Source: Actinokineospora inagensis DSM 44258 (GTDB lineage: Bacteria; Actinomycetota; Actinomycetes; Mycobacteriales; Pseudonocardiaceae). Taken from it: a DNA stretch of 64,000 nt. Shown in pieces: positions 10,938-37,125 of this stretch. The translations under genes and the position numbers were made by a program. The DNA is taken from NCBI RefSeq assembly GCF_000482865.1, contig NZ_AXWW01000013.1, positions 1 to 64,000 on the forward strand, in the 5' to 3' direction. Under the pieces are notes generated by a model. It was given only the letters and a program-made list of their open reading frames with translations. It did no database searches and had not been told where the DNA came from. Each line of letters starts with the position of its first letter. The stretch's first letter is position 1.

Positions 10938-12209
10938 ATGACCCCCAGTGGCGTGCGCACGGTGGCGGTGCTCGGCGGGAACCGCATCCCGTTCGCCCGG
11001 TCGAACGGCCCGTACGCCCGAGCGTCCAACCAGGACATGTTCACCGCCGCGCTGGACGGCCTCGTCGCCCGGTTCGGCCTGCAGGGACAACGACTCGGCG
11101 AGGTCGCCGCGGGCGCGGTCCTCAAGCACAGCCGGGATTTCAACCTGACCCGCGAGTGCGTCCTGGGCAGCCGCCTGTCCGCCGAGACCCCCGCGTACGA
11201 CGTCCAGCAGGCCTGCGGCACCGGTCTGCAGGCGATCATCCAGGCGGCCAACAAGATCGCCCTGGGCCAACTCGACTCCGCCATCGCCGGTGGTGTCGAC
11301 ACGACCAGCGACGCGCCGCTGCAGGTGAACGACGACCTGCGGCGCATCCTCATCGGACTCAACGGCGCCCGCACACTCGGTCAGCGGCTGCGGCTGCTCG
11401 GCAAGATCCGTCCCGGGCACATCGTCCCAGACATCCCGCGCAACGCGGAGCCGCGCACTGGGCTGTCCATGGGGGAGCACGCCGCGCTCACCGCCGAGCG
11501 GTGGGGAATCGGCCGCGCGGCGCAGGACGAGTTGGCCGCCGCGAGCCACCAGAAGCTCGCCGCCGCCTACGACCGCGGGTTCTTCGACGACCTGGTCACC
11601 CCGTTCCAGGGCCTTACCCGCGACCAGAACCTGCGCGCCGACTCCACGGCCGACAAGCTCGCCAAGCTGAAGCCCGTGTTCGGGTCGACGATGACCGCGG
11701 GCAACTCGACTCCGCTGTCCGACGGTGCCTCGGCCGTGCTGCTCGCGAGTGAGGAGTGGGCCGCCGCGCGCAGTCTGCCGGTCCTGGCGTACCTCACCTT
11801 CAGCGAGACCGCGGCGGTCGACTACGTGCACGGCGACGAGGGCCTGTTGATGGCCCCCGCCTATGCCGTCCCCCGGATGCTCGACCGCGCGGGCCTCGCC
11901 TTCGGCGACTTCGACTTCTACGAGGTCCACGAGGCGTTCGCGTCCCAGGTGCTCTCGACGCTCGCGGCCTGGGAGGACCCGGAGTTCTGCAAGACCCGCC
12001 TGGGGCTGGCCGAACCGCTCGGCCCGGTCGACCGGTCGAAGCTCAACGTCACCGGGTCGTCGCTGGCGGCAGGGCACCCGTTCGCGGCGACCGGCGGCCG
12101 CATCGTGGCCACCCTGGCCAAGCTGCTGCACCAGCGCGGATCCGGCCGCGGCCTGATCTCGATCTGCGCTGCCGGTGGCCAGGGGGTGACCGCTGTATTG
12201 GAGAAGTAG
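10938..12209 (+). CDS. fadA2: Acetyl-CoA C-acyltransferase (FadA2-like thiolase)
   Basis: A 423-residue thiolase catalysing thiolytic cleavage of 3-oxoacyl-CoA, or its reverse. The nucleophile lies in QQACGTGLQA (Cys93). The histidine motif is AAGHPFAATGGR, and the second cysteine is in SICAAGGQG (about 410). The ATG at 10938 follows AGGAGG at 5 bases spacing; a frame from 10899 lacks such a site. It is divergent from fabG4-htdX, as in mycobacteria, and shares their operator. Confidence 0.88.
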   Translation: MTPSGVRTVAVLGGNRIPFARSNGPYARASNQDMFTAALDGLVARFGLQGQRLGEVAAGAVLKHSRDFNLTRECVLGSRLSAETPAYDVQQACGTGLQAIIQAANKIALGQLDSAIAGGVDTTSDAPLQVNDDLRRILIGLNGARTLGQRLRLLGKIRPGHIVPDIPRNAEPRTGLSMGEHAALTAERWGIGRAAQDELAAASHQKLAAAYDRGFFDDLVTPFQGLTRDQNLRADSTADKLAKLKPVFGSTMTAGNSTPLSDGASAVLLASEEWAAARSLPVLAYLTFSETAAVDYVHGDEGLLMAPAYAVPRMLDRAGLAFGDFDFYEVHEAFASQVLSTLAAWEDPEFCKTRLGLAEPLGPVDRSKLNVTGSSLAAGHPFAATGGRIVATLAKLLHQRGSGRGLISICAAGGQGVTAVLEK

Positions 12210-12250
12210 CGCTCTCTAGCTCCAACACTAGATATCCGTAGACAACCCGA

Positions 12251-13261
12251 TCAACGCAGGAACGCGGGCCGGTCGTGGTGGTCCCCCGCCGGGAGGTAGA
12301 CGTCGGCGGAGTGCTCGATGGTGATCCCGGCCACGTCGAACGAGTGCAGGACGGCGCGGTTGAGTTCGAGGGCCACCCGGTCCCGCCAGAGCGTGCGCTC
12401 ACGCGCGACGTCGAGACCCAGCCGACCGGCGATGGTCGGGGCCAAGCCGTACGCGGCGTCCTCGGCGAGCACGTCCTCCCCGATCGCCCGGCAGATGTAG
12501 ACACCGTTGTGCGGGGCGGCCGGGTAGTCGATGCCGCCGATGGTCAGCCTGGTGTTCGAGATGACCGGGACGGCGTGCCAGCGGAGACCGAGCTCGGCGA
12601 ACCACGGCAGCTCCGGGTGGGTCAGCGCGACCTCCAGCACCGCGTCGCGCGGGATGGGGAACAGCCGGACACCCTCGGTGCCGGTCTCGATGACCAGCGG
12701 CAGCAGGTCGAACGGGCCGCGGGGGACCGGCGGGCGCCAACCGAGCTTGCCGACCCCGGTGGTGAACTCGATGTAGCGGCGGTCGCCGAGGACGTGCGCG
12801 CGTTCCCGGTACCCCGCGTACCGGACCAGTTGGTCGTTGCGGATCCGCGGCCCCGGCCGCCACGGCGAGTCGGGCGCGAACACGCTGACCATCGGCTTGA
12901 TGGTGCCGGTCCCGGCCGCCATCCGCAGGTGGTGGACGCACTCGGCGGCGACGTCGGGGGCCTCCCTGACCTCGCGCAGGTCGCGCACCAGCAGACCGCG
13001 CCACGGGATGCTGTCCGGGCACCAGCCGCTCTCCCGCAGGGCGAGCCGGGCGCCGAAGGCGAGCTCGGCCGGGGTGTGCCGGTAGGTGCCGGTGGCGGCG
13101 ACCTCGGCGCGGACCTTGGCCAGCCGGGTGTCCAGCGGTCCCGCCTTGGGGCGCGCCCCGTGGAACATGCGGAGGAACTGCTCAGCGGCGCGGAAGACCG
13201 TGCTGCCCGCCGGCCGGGTGGAGGTGGGTGGCGGAGCGATGTCGTCGCGCAGGGCGGTCAC
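12251..13261 (-). CDS. Divergent nitric oxide synthase oxygenase-like protein
   Basis: A 336-residue protein aligning from about residue 25 to 318 with the NOS oxygenase fold. Matching blocks include ATGTYRHTPAEL, the proximal region LALRESGWC with a cysteine (Cys81) where NOS has its heme thiolate, QLVRYAGY (Gln144-Tyr151), GPFDLLPLV, HPELPWFAELGLRWHAVP, and LWRDRVALELNRAVLHSF. It departs from NOS at key places: WRNxxRCxGR reads LRESGWCPDS, and the substrate segment WYMGTEIG reads VYICRAIG, so the arginine-binding Glu is Ala259. DHHTA reads EHSAD, and the C-terminal ~50 residues with the pterin-site Trp are absent. It probably folds like NOS and may bind heme; canonical arginine oxidation is doubtful. 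GTG start; 79 bp downstream of trmB on the same strand. Confidence 0.75.
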   Translation of the reverse strand: MTALRDDIAPPPTSTRPAGSTVFRAAEQFLRMFHGARPKAGPLDTRLAKVRAEVAATGTYRHTPAELAFGARLALRESGWCPDSIPWRGLLVRDLREVREAPDVAAECVHHLRMAAGTGTIKPMVSVFAPDSPWRPGPRIRNDQLVRYAGYRERAHVLGDRRYIEFTTGVGKLGWRPPVPRGPFDLLPLVIETGTEGVRLFPIPRDAVLEVALTHPELPWFAELGLRWHAVPVISNTRLTIGGIDYPAAPHNGVYICRAIGEDVLAEDAAYGLAPTIAGRLGLDVARERTLWRDRVALELNRAVLHSFDVAGITIEHSADVYLPAGDHHDRPAFLR

Positions 13262-13340
13262 ATCACTGGATATCGGTACTCAAGCGATCAGGCTCGACTA
13301 CTCGGACGTGTGGTCCTCACCGACCGCCTGTCACAGACGG

Positions 13341-14045
13341 TCAGTCCTTCACTCGTTCGAAGATGAGGTCCCGGCTGATCCGGCCCTCCTCGCGGGCCCG
13401 CGACTCGAACTTGGTGACCGGTCGCCACTCGGGTCGCGGCGCCCACCCGTCGAACCGGTTGCGCAGCAGGGGTTCCCCGGTCAGCACTTCGAGCATCTGG
13501 TCGGCGTAGTGCGCCCAGTCGGTGGCGCAGTGCAGGGTGCCGCCGGGGGCGAGTCGCGACGCGAGCAGCCGCACGAACTCGGGCTGCACCAGGCGCCGCT
13601 TGTGGTGCTTCTTCTTCGGCCACGGGTCCGGGAAGAAGATCCGCACCCCGGACAGCGAGTCGGCCGCGATGTGCTCGGTCAGCAGGACGACGGCGTCACC
13701 GAGCAGCAGCCGCAGATTGGTCAGCTCCATCGCCTCGGCGCGCAGCATCAACTGGGCCAGACCGGGCTCGTAGACGTCGACCGCCAGGTAGTTCAGCTCG
13801 GGCGCGGCCTTGGCGAGCTGCGAGGTCGTCTCGCCCATGCCAGGGCCGATCTCCAGCAGCAGCGGCGCGGACCGGCCGAACCACGTGTCGGCGTCCAACG
13901 GCCCCGCGGCCAGGTCGGCGACCTGCCGCCCCAGCTCCGGCCAGCGCCGGTCCCACGCACGGGCCTGGCCGACGGTCATCCGACCGGCGCGGTGGACGAA
14001 GCTGACGACGCCGCGTCTGCGCGGTACCTGGTCGGTCGGTGTCAC
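13341..14045 (-). CDS. trmB: tRNA (guanine-N7-)-methyltransferase TrmB
   Basis: A 234-residue SAM-dependent enzyme that methylates guanine 46 of tRNA. SAM motif LLLEIGPGMGETT (about 63-75), the acidic AVDVYEPG, and the family-specific FFPDPWPKKKHHKRRLVQPEF (about 135-155) with the catalytic Asp are all clear. Length is normal with a short basic N-terminal extension. GTG start at 14045. It precedes the NOS-like gene on the same strand. Confidence 0.95.
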   Translation of the reverse strand: MTPTDQVPRRRGVVSFVHRAGRMTVGQARAWDRRWPELGRQVADLAAGPLDADTWFGRSAPLLLEIGPGMGETTSQLAKAAPELNYLAVDVYEPGLAQLMLRAEAMELTNLRLLLGDAVVLLTEHIAADSLSGVRIFFPDPWPKKKHHKRRLVQPEFVRLLASRLAPGGTLHCATDWAHYADQMLEVLTGEPLLRNRFDGWAPRPEWRPVTKFESRAREEGRISRDLIFERVKD

Positions 14046-14093: not shown

Positions 14094-14669
14094 TCAGGCG
14101 GCGGGCGCCAGGGACTCCAACCGGGACAGGTTGGCCCGCAGGTCCGGCAGGCCCGCGACCGGGATGGGGGCGGGCTGCGGTCCGGCGTGCACCGGGAACA
14201 CGTCGACCCAGCCGGTGTGCCGGTGCGTGTGCGCCAGGGTGGTCGGCATACCCGGCTCGGCGAGCGCCCGTTCCGACGGCATGTACTCCCAGTACCCGGA
14301 GTCGCCGTCGACGCCCCAGGGCACGAACACCCAGCCCGGTCTGGCGTCGAGCAGCTTGGCGACCCGGTCCTCCACCGCGAAGCCCTCACGGCGGGACCCG
14401 AGCTCACCCGCGGCCAGCGCGCGCAGCCACCAGGGGGCGGCCAGCCGCGGCTCGGCGGCGCTCGCGGCGTGGAACAGGGCGAGCACCTGCGGCTCGGGGG
14501 CCCGGTGCACCCAGGCCCGGCGGGCTTCCGCGGGCGCGGTGGCGGGGGCCCCGTTGTGCTGTTCCAGGGCTTCCGACCACTCCAGGCCGATCAGCGGCTC
14601 CACGTGCAGGCCGCGCTGGGTGGGCACGGTGAGCCGCTTCTGCGAAGCGTTGGCGTCAAGCACCGTCAA
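14094..14669 (-). CDS. Hypothetical protein
   Basis: A 191-residue protein of unknown function. The TTG start at 14669 is preferred because GGAGG lies 6 bases upstream (an in-frame GTG two codons later is too far from it). No signal peptide, membrane segment or metal motif is evident. It is Ala/Pro-rich with conserved-looking aromatic blocks WVHRAPEPQVLALFHAA, APWWLRALAAGELG and GWVFVPWGVDGDSGYWEYMP. It ends 48 bp before trmB on the same strand. I do not recognise the family. Confidence 0.65.
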   Translation of the reverse strand: MTVLDANASQKRLTVPTQRGLHVEPLIGLEWSEALEQHNGAPATAPAEARRAWVHRAPEPQVLALFHAASAAEPRLAAPWWLRALAAGELGSRREGFAVEDRVAKLLDARPGWVFVPWGVDGDSGYWEYMPSERALAEPGMPTTLAHTHRHTGWVDVFPVHAGPQPAPIPVAGLPDLRANLSRLESLAPAA

Positions 14670-35820: not shown

Positions 35821-37125
35821 ATGTCGCTGCGTTTGCGTGCTGCCGTGGTCCTGCCGTGTGACGCCGCCGGTTCGGTGGTGCGCGACGGCGTGGTGGATGT
35901 CGATGACACCGGCCGGATTGTCTACTGTGGACCAGCCAGTGCCGCGCCGGTGACGGCGGCGGAGACGGAAGCGCTGGACGGCATCCTGATGCCCGGTCTG
36001 GTCAACGCCCACGCGCACAGTCCGATGACGTTGTTGCGCGGGCTCGGCGGCGACCTGCCGTTGCTGCGGTGGCTCACCGAGGTCATCTGGCCGACCGAGG
36101 CCAAACTGACCCCCGACGACGTTTACGCGGGAATGGTGCTCGGGTCGTTGGAAATGCTCAAGGCGGGCGTCACCACCAGCGCCGAGATGTATTTCTTCGG
36201 CGAAGAACTGGTGCGCGCCGTCCTCGACACCGGCGCCCGCCTCGTCTACGGCCCGGCGATCATCGACGCGCCCGGCTGGGACTGGGAGCACCAACTCCAG
36301 CAGGCCTGCGCCTGGATCGACGCGGACGGCCTGCGGTTCGGGCACGGAGACCGGATCGAACTGGGCTACGGCCCGCATTCCGCGTACACGCTTTCCCCGG
36401 AGGCGTTGAAAGAAGTGGGGGAGGCGGCCCGGGAACGCGGGGCGTTGGTGCAGATCCACGTGGCCGAGTCATTGCCGGAAGACGTGCGGCAACGCGAGGA
36501 ATTCGGTTCGGTCCCCCGACTGCTCGACCAGGTGGACCTGTTCGGCGGTCGGGTGCTCGCGGCACACGCGGTCCACCTGTCGGACGAGGACATCGAAATC
36601 CTGCTCCGCCGCGACGTCGGGGTGGCGCATTGCCCGGGGTCGAACATGAAGTTGGCCTCCGGGACCGCGCGAACGGTTGACCTCCGCGACGCCGGGGTCA
36701 AGGTGGGATTGGGCACGGACGGCCCGGCGAGCAACGACGACCTCGACCTCTGGGAGGACGCGCGGCTGGCAGGCCTGCTCGCCCGAGTATCCACAATGGA
36801 CTCCACCGCGCTCAAGGCCACCGACCTGCTGCTGATGTCAACCCGAGGCGGCGCGGACGCGCTGTCCCGCCCGGACATCGGACGGCTCGAACCGGGAGCG
36901 TGGGCCGACCTCGTGCACGTCGACGCGACCGGCCCCGCGTTCCCCGCGGGCCTCGACGTGACCGACGAACACCTGATCGCGAACCTCGTGTGGTCCGCCG
37001 GTTCCCGCGCCGTCCAGGACGTGTGGGTGGCCGGTCAACAGGTGGTCGCCAACCGGGAACCCACCCAGGTCGACGAGCAGGCGGCCATCGCGAAAGCACG
37101 AGCGATCACCCGCAGGCTGATCTAA
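35821..37125 (+). CDS. Amidohydrolase (S-adenosylhomocysteine/methylthioadenosine deaminase-like)
   Basis: A 434-residue metal-dependent deaminase/hydrolase of the amidohydrolase superfamily (MtaD/TrzN-like). Metal ligands are in NAHAHSP (His64, His66), IHVAES (about 213), HAVHLS (about 247) and GTDGPASN (Asp about 300). VAHCPGSNMKLASG precedes the last. Likely substrates are adenosine derivatives or guanine-like bases; sequence alone does not decide. ATG at 35821. It ends with a 4-bp overlap on a convergent SDR gene. Confidence 0.85.
   Translation: MSLRLRAAVVLPCDAAGSVVRDGVVDVDDTGRIVYCGPASAAPVTAAETEALDGILMPGLVNAHAHSPMTLLRGLGGDLPLLRWLTEVIWPTEAKLTPDDVYAGMVLGSLEMLKAGVTTSAEMYFFGEELVRAVLDTGARLVYGPAIIDAPGWDWEHQLQQACAWIDADGLRFGHGDRIELGYGPHSAYTLSPEALKEVGEAARERGALVQIHVAESLPEDVRQREEFGSVPRLLDQVDLFGGRVLAAHAVHLSDEDIEILLRRDVGVAHCPGSNMKLASGTARTVDLRDAGVKVGLGTDGPASNDDLDLWEDARLAGLLARVSTMDSTALKATDLLLMSTRGGADALSRPDIGRLEPGAWADLVHVDATGPAFPAGLDVTDEHLIANLVWSAGSRAVQDVWVAGQQVVANREPTQVDEQAAIAKARAITRRLI

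Follow-up and report, generated by a model that had tools for sequence, protein, structure and literature searches.

A maintained relative of nitric oxide synthase in actinobacteria that very probably does not make nitric oxide from arginine

Nitric oxide synthases (NOS) are among the most studied heme enzymes, and it is usual to regard their heme-ligating cysteine, arginine-binding glutamate and pterin site as a single catalytic unit. The closest described systems are the bacterial NOS oxygenases, such as those of B. subtilis and B. cereus (bcNOS). PMC13291759 describes what Cys194, Glu371 and Arg375 do in iNOS, and an extract of PMC3005942 presents the glutamate as necessary for high-affinity arginine binding and pterin-free NOS chemistry with H2O2 as known in principle. 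An extract of PMC12922734 places the pterin and its lariats at the centre of the dimer interface of a cyanobacterial NOS. A genome-mining study of NOS deals, in its available part, with the NOSs of biosynthetic clusters (PMC10831120). Among the open-access PMC papers listed for our queries we recognised none that describes the proteins treated here, namely one actinobacterial protein and its non-canonical NOS relatives, to which we give the working name NOSL.

The window gene and its protein

The gene lies at 12251-13261 on the minus strand of the window, by which we mean the whole stretch of 64,000 nucleotides analysed, and its open reading frame, with GTG as start codon, encodes 336 amino acids. 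The product, a member of group I of NOSL, is a NOS oxygenase core that lacks the pterin region at the C-terminus. Residues 21-315 match positions 4-298 of the 362 positions of the Pfam profile NO_synthase (PF02898) with 306.9 bits (cut-off 22.7; E 2.2e-91); this is the sole Pfam family in the protein, with no second domain attached. A PDB sequence search gives 81 matches; in the 60 listed NOS is the matched molecule (one row is named 'subunit A' only), with a best E value of 1.2e-72. A sequence-only reading of this DNA had claimed an alignment over the NOS oxygenase core, which these searches bear out, and the residue changes it described are all present. Cys81 (codon 13019-13021, minus strand) occupies the heme-ligand position in LRESGWCP, where LRESGWC stands for WRNxxRC; VYICRAIG stands for WYMGTEIG, so that Ala259 (codon 12485-12487, minus strand) aligns with the arginine-binding glutamate (Glu371 of iNOS); Asp263 takes the position of the pterin-contacting arginine (Arg375 of iNOS); and EHS replaces DHH. 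The end of the protein is indeed absent, but the loss, which the same reading had put at about 50 residues, is a little larger, as the C-terminal 64 positions of the profile have no counterpart. The following DNA holds no trace of the missing end, again as had been stated: the ORF of a convergent thiolase ends at 12209, which leaves 41 bases to the gene end at 12251 and therefore no room for a lost tail. A frame error at the 3' end was considered and rejected in view of these 41 bases and of the same ending in relatives. Just 3' of the gene, CTACGGATATCTAGTG (gene orientation; 12226-12241, minus strand) resembles by eye GTACCGATATCCAGTG, which lies just 5' of it (13265-13280, minus strand), and the two stretches are thus seen by eye to flank the gene.

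Twenty-three relatives in named genomes, several of which are normal NOSs, share 39-85% identity with the window protein; the values are 74-85% in Actinokineospora globicatena, A. diospyrosa and A. iranica, and about 60% in Allokutzneria and Gandjariella. With such relatives, and with the altered residues fixed in a clade, the observation is not due to chance. The same genome also possesses a normal NOS on another contig (G000:C43, locus L001), which scores 485 bits (the window gene: 306) and retains all motifs (WYLGTEIG, DHHTE, DWSWIVPPMSG); the window gene is a paralogue of it. NCBIfam gives no model hit for either of the two. Residue 251, which we take to correspond to Phe363 of iNOS, a position over the heme in NOS, is His (APHNG) in the window copy alone and Tyr or Phe in the other 22 group I members.

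An AlphaFold2 model of the window protein, built from 22 alignment rows, has a pLDDT of 83.5 and a pTM of 0.82, with pLDDT below 50 at residues 1-16 and 318-336. The 50 Foldseek hits listed, out of 278, are NOS chains, with TM values of 0.81-0.84 by query length. The predicted fold is that of NOS, as the sequence-only reading had expected, an outcome that was favoured, and is partly built in, because normal NOSs stand in the alignment. Low model confidence around Cys81 is not diagnostic, since the control, a normal NOS (L013) modelled with the same 22 sequences, shows equally low values there. By its sequence and its predicted fold, NOSL belongs to the NOS family.

Spread, phylogeny and residue census

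NOSL is present in all 16 genomes of the genus that were searched, 11 of which, including the window genome, also carry a normal NOS, and five of which do not. A profile made from 29 NOSL proteins (A3) finds matches in 223 of 342 genomes of the same family, which, judging by the named relatives, would be Pseudonocardiaceae. The NOSL scores form a separate upper group of at least 534 bits in 109 genomes, and the next match has 507 bits (G025). This match and the lower-scoring ones of G061 and G016 represent a third NOSL branch (group III), which likewise lacks the pterin region; in G079 a form with tyrosine at the heme-ligand position is present and no copy falls in the upper score group. At least 113 of the 342 family genomes possess a NOSL member, a lower bound as the search for further third-branch or Tyr-form copies covered these genomes and a single genus. 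In a sample of 298 genomes across the order, matches outside the family reach at most 448 bits, so that within this sample NOSL is not seen beyond the family.

In a tree of 68 rows the 47 NOSL rows form one clade (SH-aLRT 100) among the NOSs of Pseudonocardiaceae, and inside it the 25 rows without the glutamate, Tyr form included, form one clade as well (SH-aLRT 99). Both clades stay when the motif columns are removed (bootstrap/SH-aLRT 99/96 for NOSL and 100/97 for the Glu-less rows); without these columns group II is recovered in 26% of bootstrap trees and cannot clearly be called a single clade. On this tree the glutamate was lost once, in the clade that holds the window gene.

The residue census comprises 23 group I proteins (including that of the window), 86 of group II, three of group III, two of the Tyr form and 14 normal NOSs. 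Apart from Cys194, Glu371 and Arg375, the iNOS numbers used below are our own assignments. The heme-ligand cysteine is kept in all 112 members of groups I to III (23/23, 86/86 and 3/3), and its column is one of the 60 out of 298 that are invariant across them. The WxWxxPP motif of the pterin region is found in 0/112 NOSL proteins versus 14/14 normal NOSs; the proximal tryptophan is replaced by Leu, Met or Val in 112/112, and the glycine two residues after the cysteine is lost in 23/23 group I and 85/86 group II proteins. The arginine-binding glutamate is kept in 14/14 normal NOSs, 3/3 group III and 78/86 group II proteins (Asp in the other eight) and in none of the 23 of group I, which have Ala (19), Thr (2), Ser (1) or Gly (1) instead, preceded by Val (22) or Ile (1) for the tryptophan. 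At the position of Arg375 group I has Asp or Glu (23/23), group II Arg (86/86) and group III Gly (3/3); at that of Arg382 the residues are Ala (21), Gly (1) and Cys (1) in group I, Ala or Gly in 86/86 of group II, and Arg in 3/3 of group III. DHH or DHY is kept in 86/86 group II proteins, and a Cys-Pro pair at the ligand position marks 23/23 of group I versus 1/86 of group II. The losses do not follow one simple ladder, because position 367 is Tyr in 23/23 of group I and Phe in 89/89 of groups II and III.

The new pocket residues of group I are themselves conserved (P82 in 23/23, V254 in 22/23, D263 and A270 in 21/23 each, V264 in 20/23, A259 in 19/23), and this suggests that a new function, not drift, lies behind them; in our survey of homologues the altered residues prove to be fixed in a clade, a point that the sequence-only reading had proposed to check. 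If a difference is called fixed at ≥90% in group I and 85% in normal NOSs, 11 of the 14 fixed differences between the two fall within residues 75-89, 251-270 and 316-318, stretches that had been picked as motifs of the finding, and therefore no probability is given for this clustering.

In the genus g28, with eight genomes in our sample, Tyr replaces the heme-ligand Cys in 7/7 intact trmB-linked copies (L226-L232); the eighth copy (G126; L237, L248) is divided between two frames and is not among the seven read at the ligand position. Tyrosine can ligate heme in other proteins, and the replacement may mean either that the ligand was switched or that heme was lost; its occurrence in all seven intact copies implies that at least one lineage can do without thiolate chemistry. 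Two proteins from another family of the same order (L199 and L200, of G387 and G357; 324-326 aa), set aside from the census, belong to a separate NOS-like family in which Gly takes the heme-ligand position (RGIGR and KGIGR instead of RCxGR), the glutamate is kept and WxW is absent. They are roughly 50 N-terminal residues shorter and match the NOSL profile weakly (196-198 bits); G370 and G379 give two similar hits.

Maintenance, gene neighbourhood and upstream element

Median dN/dS values by the Nei-Gojobori method are 0.379 for NOSL (16 sequences, 120 pairs), 0.355 for normal NOS (11 sequences, 55 pairs) and 0.279 for trmB (16 sequences, 120 pairs), of which only the comparison between genes counts because high GC distorts the method. 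By this comparison NOSL is under purifying selection, with a dN/dS similar to that of normal NOS. The gene is intact, as the sequence-only reading had stated, and the comparison with relatives demonstrates the codon selection; the codon score of the window gene, trained on a set that includes this gene, proves nothing alone. In 11 of the 23 group I genomes (5/16 in the genus and 6/7 outside it) NOSL is the single NOS-family match, and so it does not depend on a normal NOS.

The conserved upstream neighbour is trmB (13341-14045, minus strand), so named after its Pfam family Methyltransf_4 (PF02390), and beyond it lies F3 (14094-14663, minus strand), a conserved protein without Pfam match that accompanies trmB at 37 of the 40 relative loci fetched (L081-L120). 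The adjacency to trmB had been noted in the sequence-only reading, and it persists among relatives: in 19/23 group I and 70/86 group II copies, i.e. 89/109, a trmB of the same orientation is situated no more than 400 bases upstream of NOSL. It is 400-3000 bases away in three group I and eight group II copies, on the opposite strand in one group I copy (L090), 1.3-1.7 kb away in the three group III copies, and not in the fetched stretch in eight group II copies, seven of which are g28 copies sitting elsewhere. In 18 of the 22 group I loci other than that of the window (L081-L102), NOSL is followed on the same strand by an amidohydrolase (F6), whose closest solved structure is an MTA/SAH deaminase; the distance is -1 to 152 bases in 17 of them and 535 in the remaining one; it is not in the stretch at L083, L085, L088 and L094, and in group II, where present, it lies 1.1-3.0 kb from NOSL. 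In the window F6 is located elsewhere (35821-37122, plus strand): it has been relocated and the gene order broken by rearrangement. By position, F3 and trmB are the only neighbours conserved throughout. The link to trmB looks positional rather than operonic, and an operon with trmB was rejected as an explanation, because NOSL has a promoter-like element of its own and other genes stand between NOSL and trmB in some genomes. No redox partner was recognised among seven neighbour proteins scanned with Pfam.

The promoter-like element consists of a box, GAGTAGTCGAG (13293-13303, minus strand), 31 nt from the start codon, and a -10-like CCGATA (13271-13276, minus strand), 9 nt upstream of the GTG. 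A relaxed box, G[TC]A[ACG]T[CT][ACG]AG, occurs at 30-31 nt in 23/23 group I genes (13/23 in the exact form) and CGATA 8-9 nt before the start in 23/23, compared with at most 1 (box) and 2 (CGATA) in 200 shuffles of the same sequences, which overstate the case since the patterns were read off these same, related sequences. The arrangement is common to distant genera and to g28 copies away from trmB (L113, L118). In group II, 69/86 genes carry AGTGAC at 33-35 nt, and in 84/86 a TANNNT ends 7-8 nt ahead of the start. The short distance between element and start suggests a leaderless NOSL transcript. Across the window genome the group I pattern has 37 sites (one exact, that of NOSL; one with two mismatches; 35 with three) versus 12 in a reversed control, and for this reason no regulon is claimed. 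The group II upstream stretch was also considered as coding sequence, with MPRLAVTR-like peptides read from an upstream start; we read it as a DNA element because third codon positions are kept and first and second ones vary (by eye), and because there is an in-frame stop at the window gene, whose open frame begins just a few codons ahead of the GTG.

Possible function and comparison with known systems

We regard it as highly probable that NOSL is a maintained NOS descendant and not an arginine NOS. Its residues make arginine-to-NO chemistry very unlikely: with no pterin site, NOS-type oxygen activation is unlikely, and with no glutamate, so is high-affinity arginine binding (extracts of PMC13291759 and PMC3005942). 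The sequence-only reading is thus borne out in part: its negative half, that NO is not synthesised from arginine, is well supported, and its positive half, a heme protein that acts on another substrate or as a sensor, is plausible.

As to what the protein does instead, we prefer, with a confidence that stays short of even, the view that NOSL is a second NOS-fold lineage, derived from normal NOS, which has become a pterin-free heme-thiolate enzyme with another substrate. A normal NOS would have duplicated in Pseudonocardiaceae, as the tree suggests, and the resulting lineage would have been inherited vertically beside trmB, as the conserved locus suggests. The pterin region and the proximal tryptophan are lost in groups I to III, and the arginine at the Arg382 position in groups I and II; then, once, in the clade of the window gene, the arginine-binding glutamate, the preceding tryptophan, the pterin-contacting arginine and DHH disappeared and their replacements became fixed. 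The protein would still bind heme via Cys81, would bind neither arginine nor tetrahydrobiopterin, and would oxidise another small substrate in a P450- or peroxygenase-like manner. Loss of the proximal tryptophan should make the thiolate a stronger donor. The distal pocket may be larger, to judge from residue sizes, and differently charged, and its conserved new residues would favour a new small ligand. The substrate of group II may still carry a guanidine, amidine or amine, since the guanidine-facing glutamate and tryptophan stay and Tyr367, Asn/Asp376 and Arg382, which we take to be amino-acid-facing positions, are replaced. The C-terminal stretch missing in NOSL presumably takes part in the dimer interface. 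By analogy with the cyanobacterial NOS, where the pterin and its lariats form the centre of that interface, the NOSL dimer is probably weaker. Against an enzyme speak the loss of the glycine after the cysteine, the tyrosine in g28, the pattern at position 367 and the fact that no redox partner was recognised among the seven neighbour proteins scanned.

There are other explanations. The foremost of these, which we consider clearly less probable than the enzyme, is a heme sensor or heme/NO-handling protein, in which the Cys-Pro-bound heme would signal heme, NO or redox state to a partner without catalysis. The Cys-Pro pair is reminiscent of heme-regulatory motifs and is present in 23/23 group I proteins, tyrosine, a possible heme ligand, in 7/7 intact g28 copies suits heme binding better than P450 chemistry, and NOSL has its own conserved promoter-like element. 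However, a two-residue motif is weak evidence and only 1/86 group II proteins share it, Glu or Asp is kept in 86/86 of group II although gas or heme sensing would not need it, there is one Pfam family and no second domain, and the neighbours conserved throughout, by position, are F3 and trmB only. Alternatively, the fold might be kept as a heme-free scaffold or pseudoenzyme for a protein-protein or ligand-binding role, the heme being lost or dispensable. The loss of the proximal tryptophan, the glycine after the cysteine and the pterin region would fit such a role, as would the tyrosine in one genus and the separate family with Gly at the cysteine position in another genus of the order, but a Cys81 unchanged in 112/112 proteins of groups I to III, in one of the 60 invariant columns, makes it an unlikely one. 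That NOSL retains some NO synthase activity, or regulates the normal NOS via mixed dimers, is in our view very improbable: a normal NOS is also present in 11/16 genus genomes, including that of the window, but 11/23 group I genomes have no second NOS-family match, the missing pterin region would be central to the dimer interface (extract of PMC12922734), and the glutamate for high-affinity arginine binding (extract of PMC3005942) is gone. A decaying pseudogene or recent strain-specific truncation, which the many lost catalytic motifs and the split Tyr-form copy of G126 might suggest and of which the sequence-only reading had named the truncation as a possible objection, is rejected as having next to no probability, given an open gene in 16/16 genus genomes, one well supported clade, a dN/dS similar to normal NOS, fixed new residues and a conserved upstream element.

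Across the family one may tentatively see, with somewhat less assurance than for the enzyme itself, a series leading from NOS to a new kind of heme protein, in which the pterin region and proximal tryptophan, then parts of the substrate site, then the glutamate were given up, and in one genus the thiolate was exchanged for tyrosine; the NOS fold would then have been repurposed for sensing or chemistry outside NO biology. The natural series, in which parts of NOS were lost one after another and the gene stayed under purifying selection, would offer ready-made intermediates for the role of each NOS part and for other uses of the NOS fold. It also cautions against taking a PF02898 match in an actinobacterial genome for NO production, a non-canonical member being present in at least 113 of the 342 genomes of the family.

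Compared with known systems, NOSL shares with cytochrome P450 and the heme-thiolate peroxygenases a Cys-ligated heme without pterin, provided that it binds heme; this is an analogy only, as their fold is unrelated to that of NOSL, which matches PF02898 only. TxtD, PtnF and Laj3, NOSs of actinobacterial biosynthetic clusters, belong to the same family as NOSL and are likened to it here by their description in an extract of PMC10831120. The bacterial NOS oxygenases (PF02898; B. subtilis NOS, bcNOS) are of the same sequence family and have the cysteine at the heme-ligand position, and chains of B. subtilis NOS and human eNOS superpose on the NOSL model with TM values of about 0.83. In contrast to them, NOSL is devoid of the pterin/C-terminal region, the proximal tryptophan and the glycine after the cysteine, and group I also of the arginine-binding glutamate, the pterin-contacting arginine and DHH. 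The normal NOS of the same genome (L001) is a member of the same family but retains all motifs, and the NOSL clade is nested among such normal NOSs of Pseudonocardiaceae; NOSL fails three defining catalytic features of NOS and is therefore not filed as a NOS.
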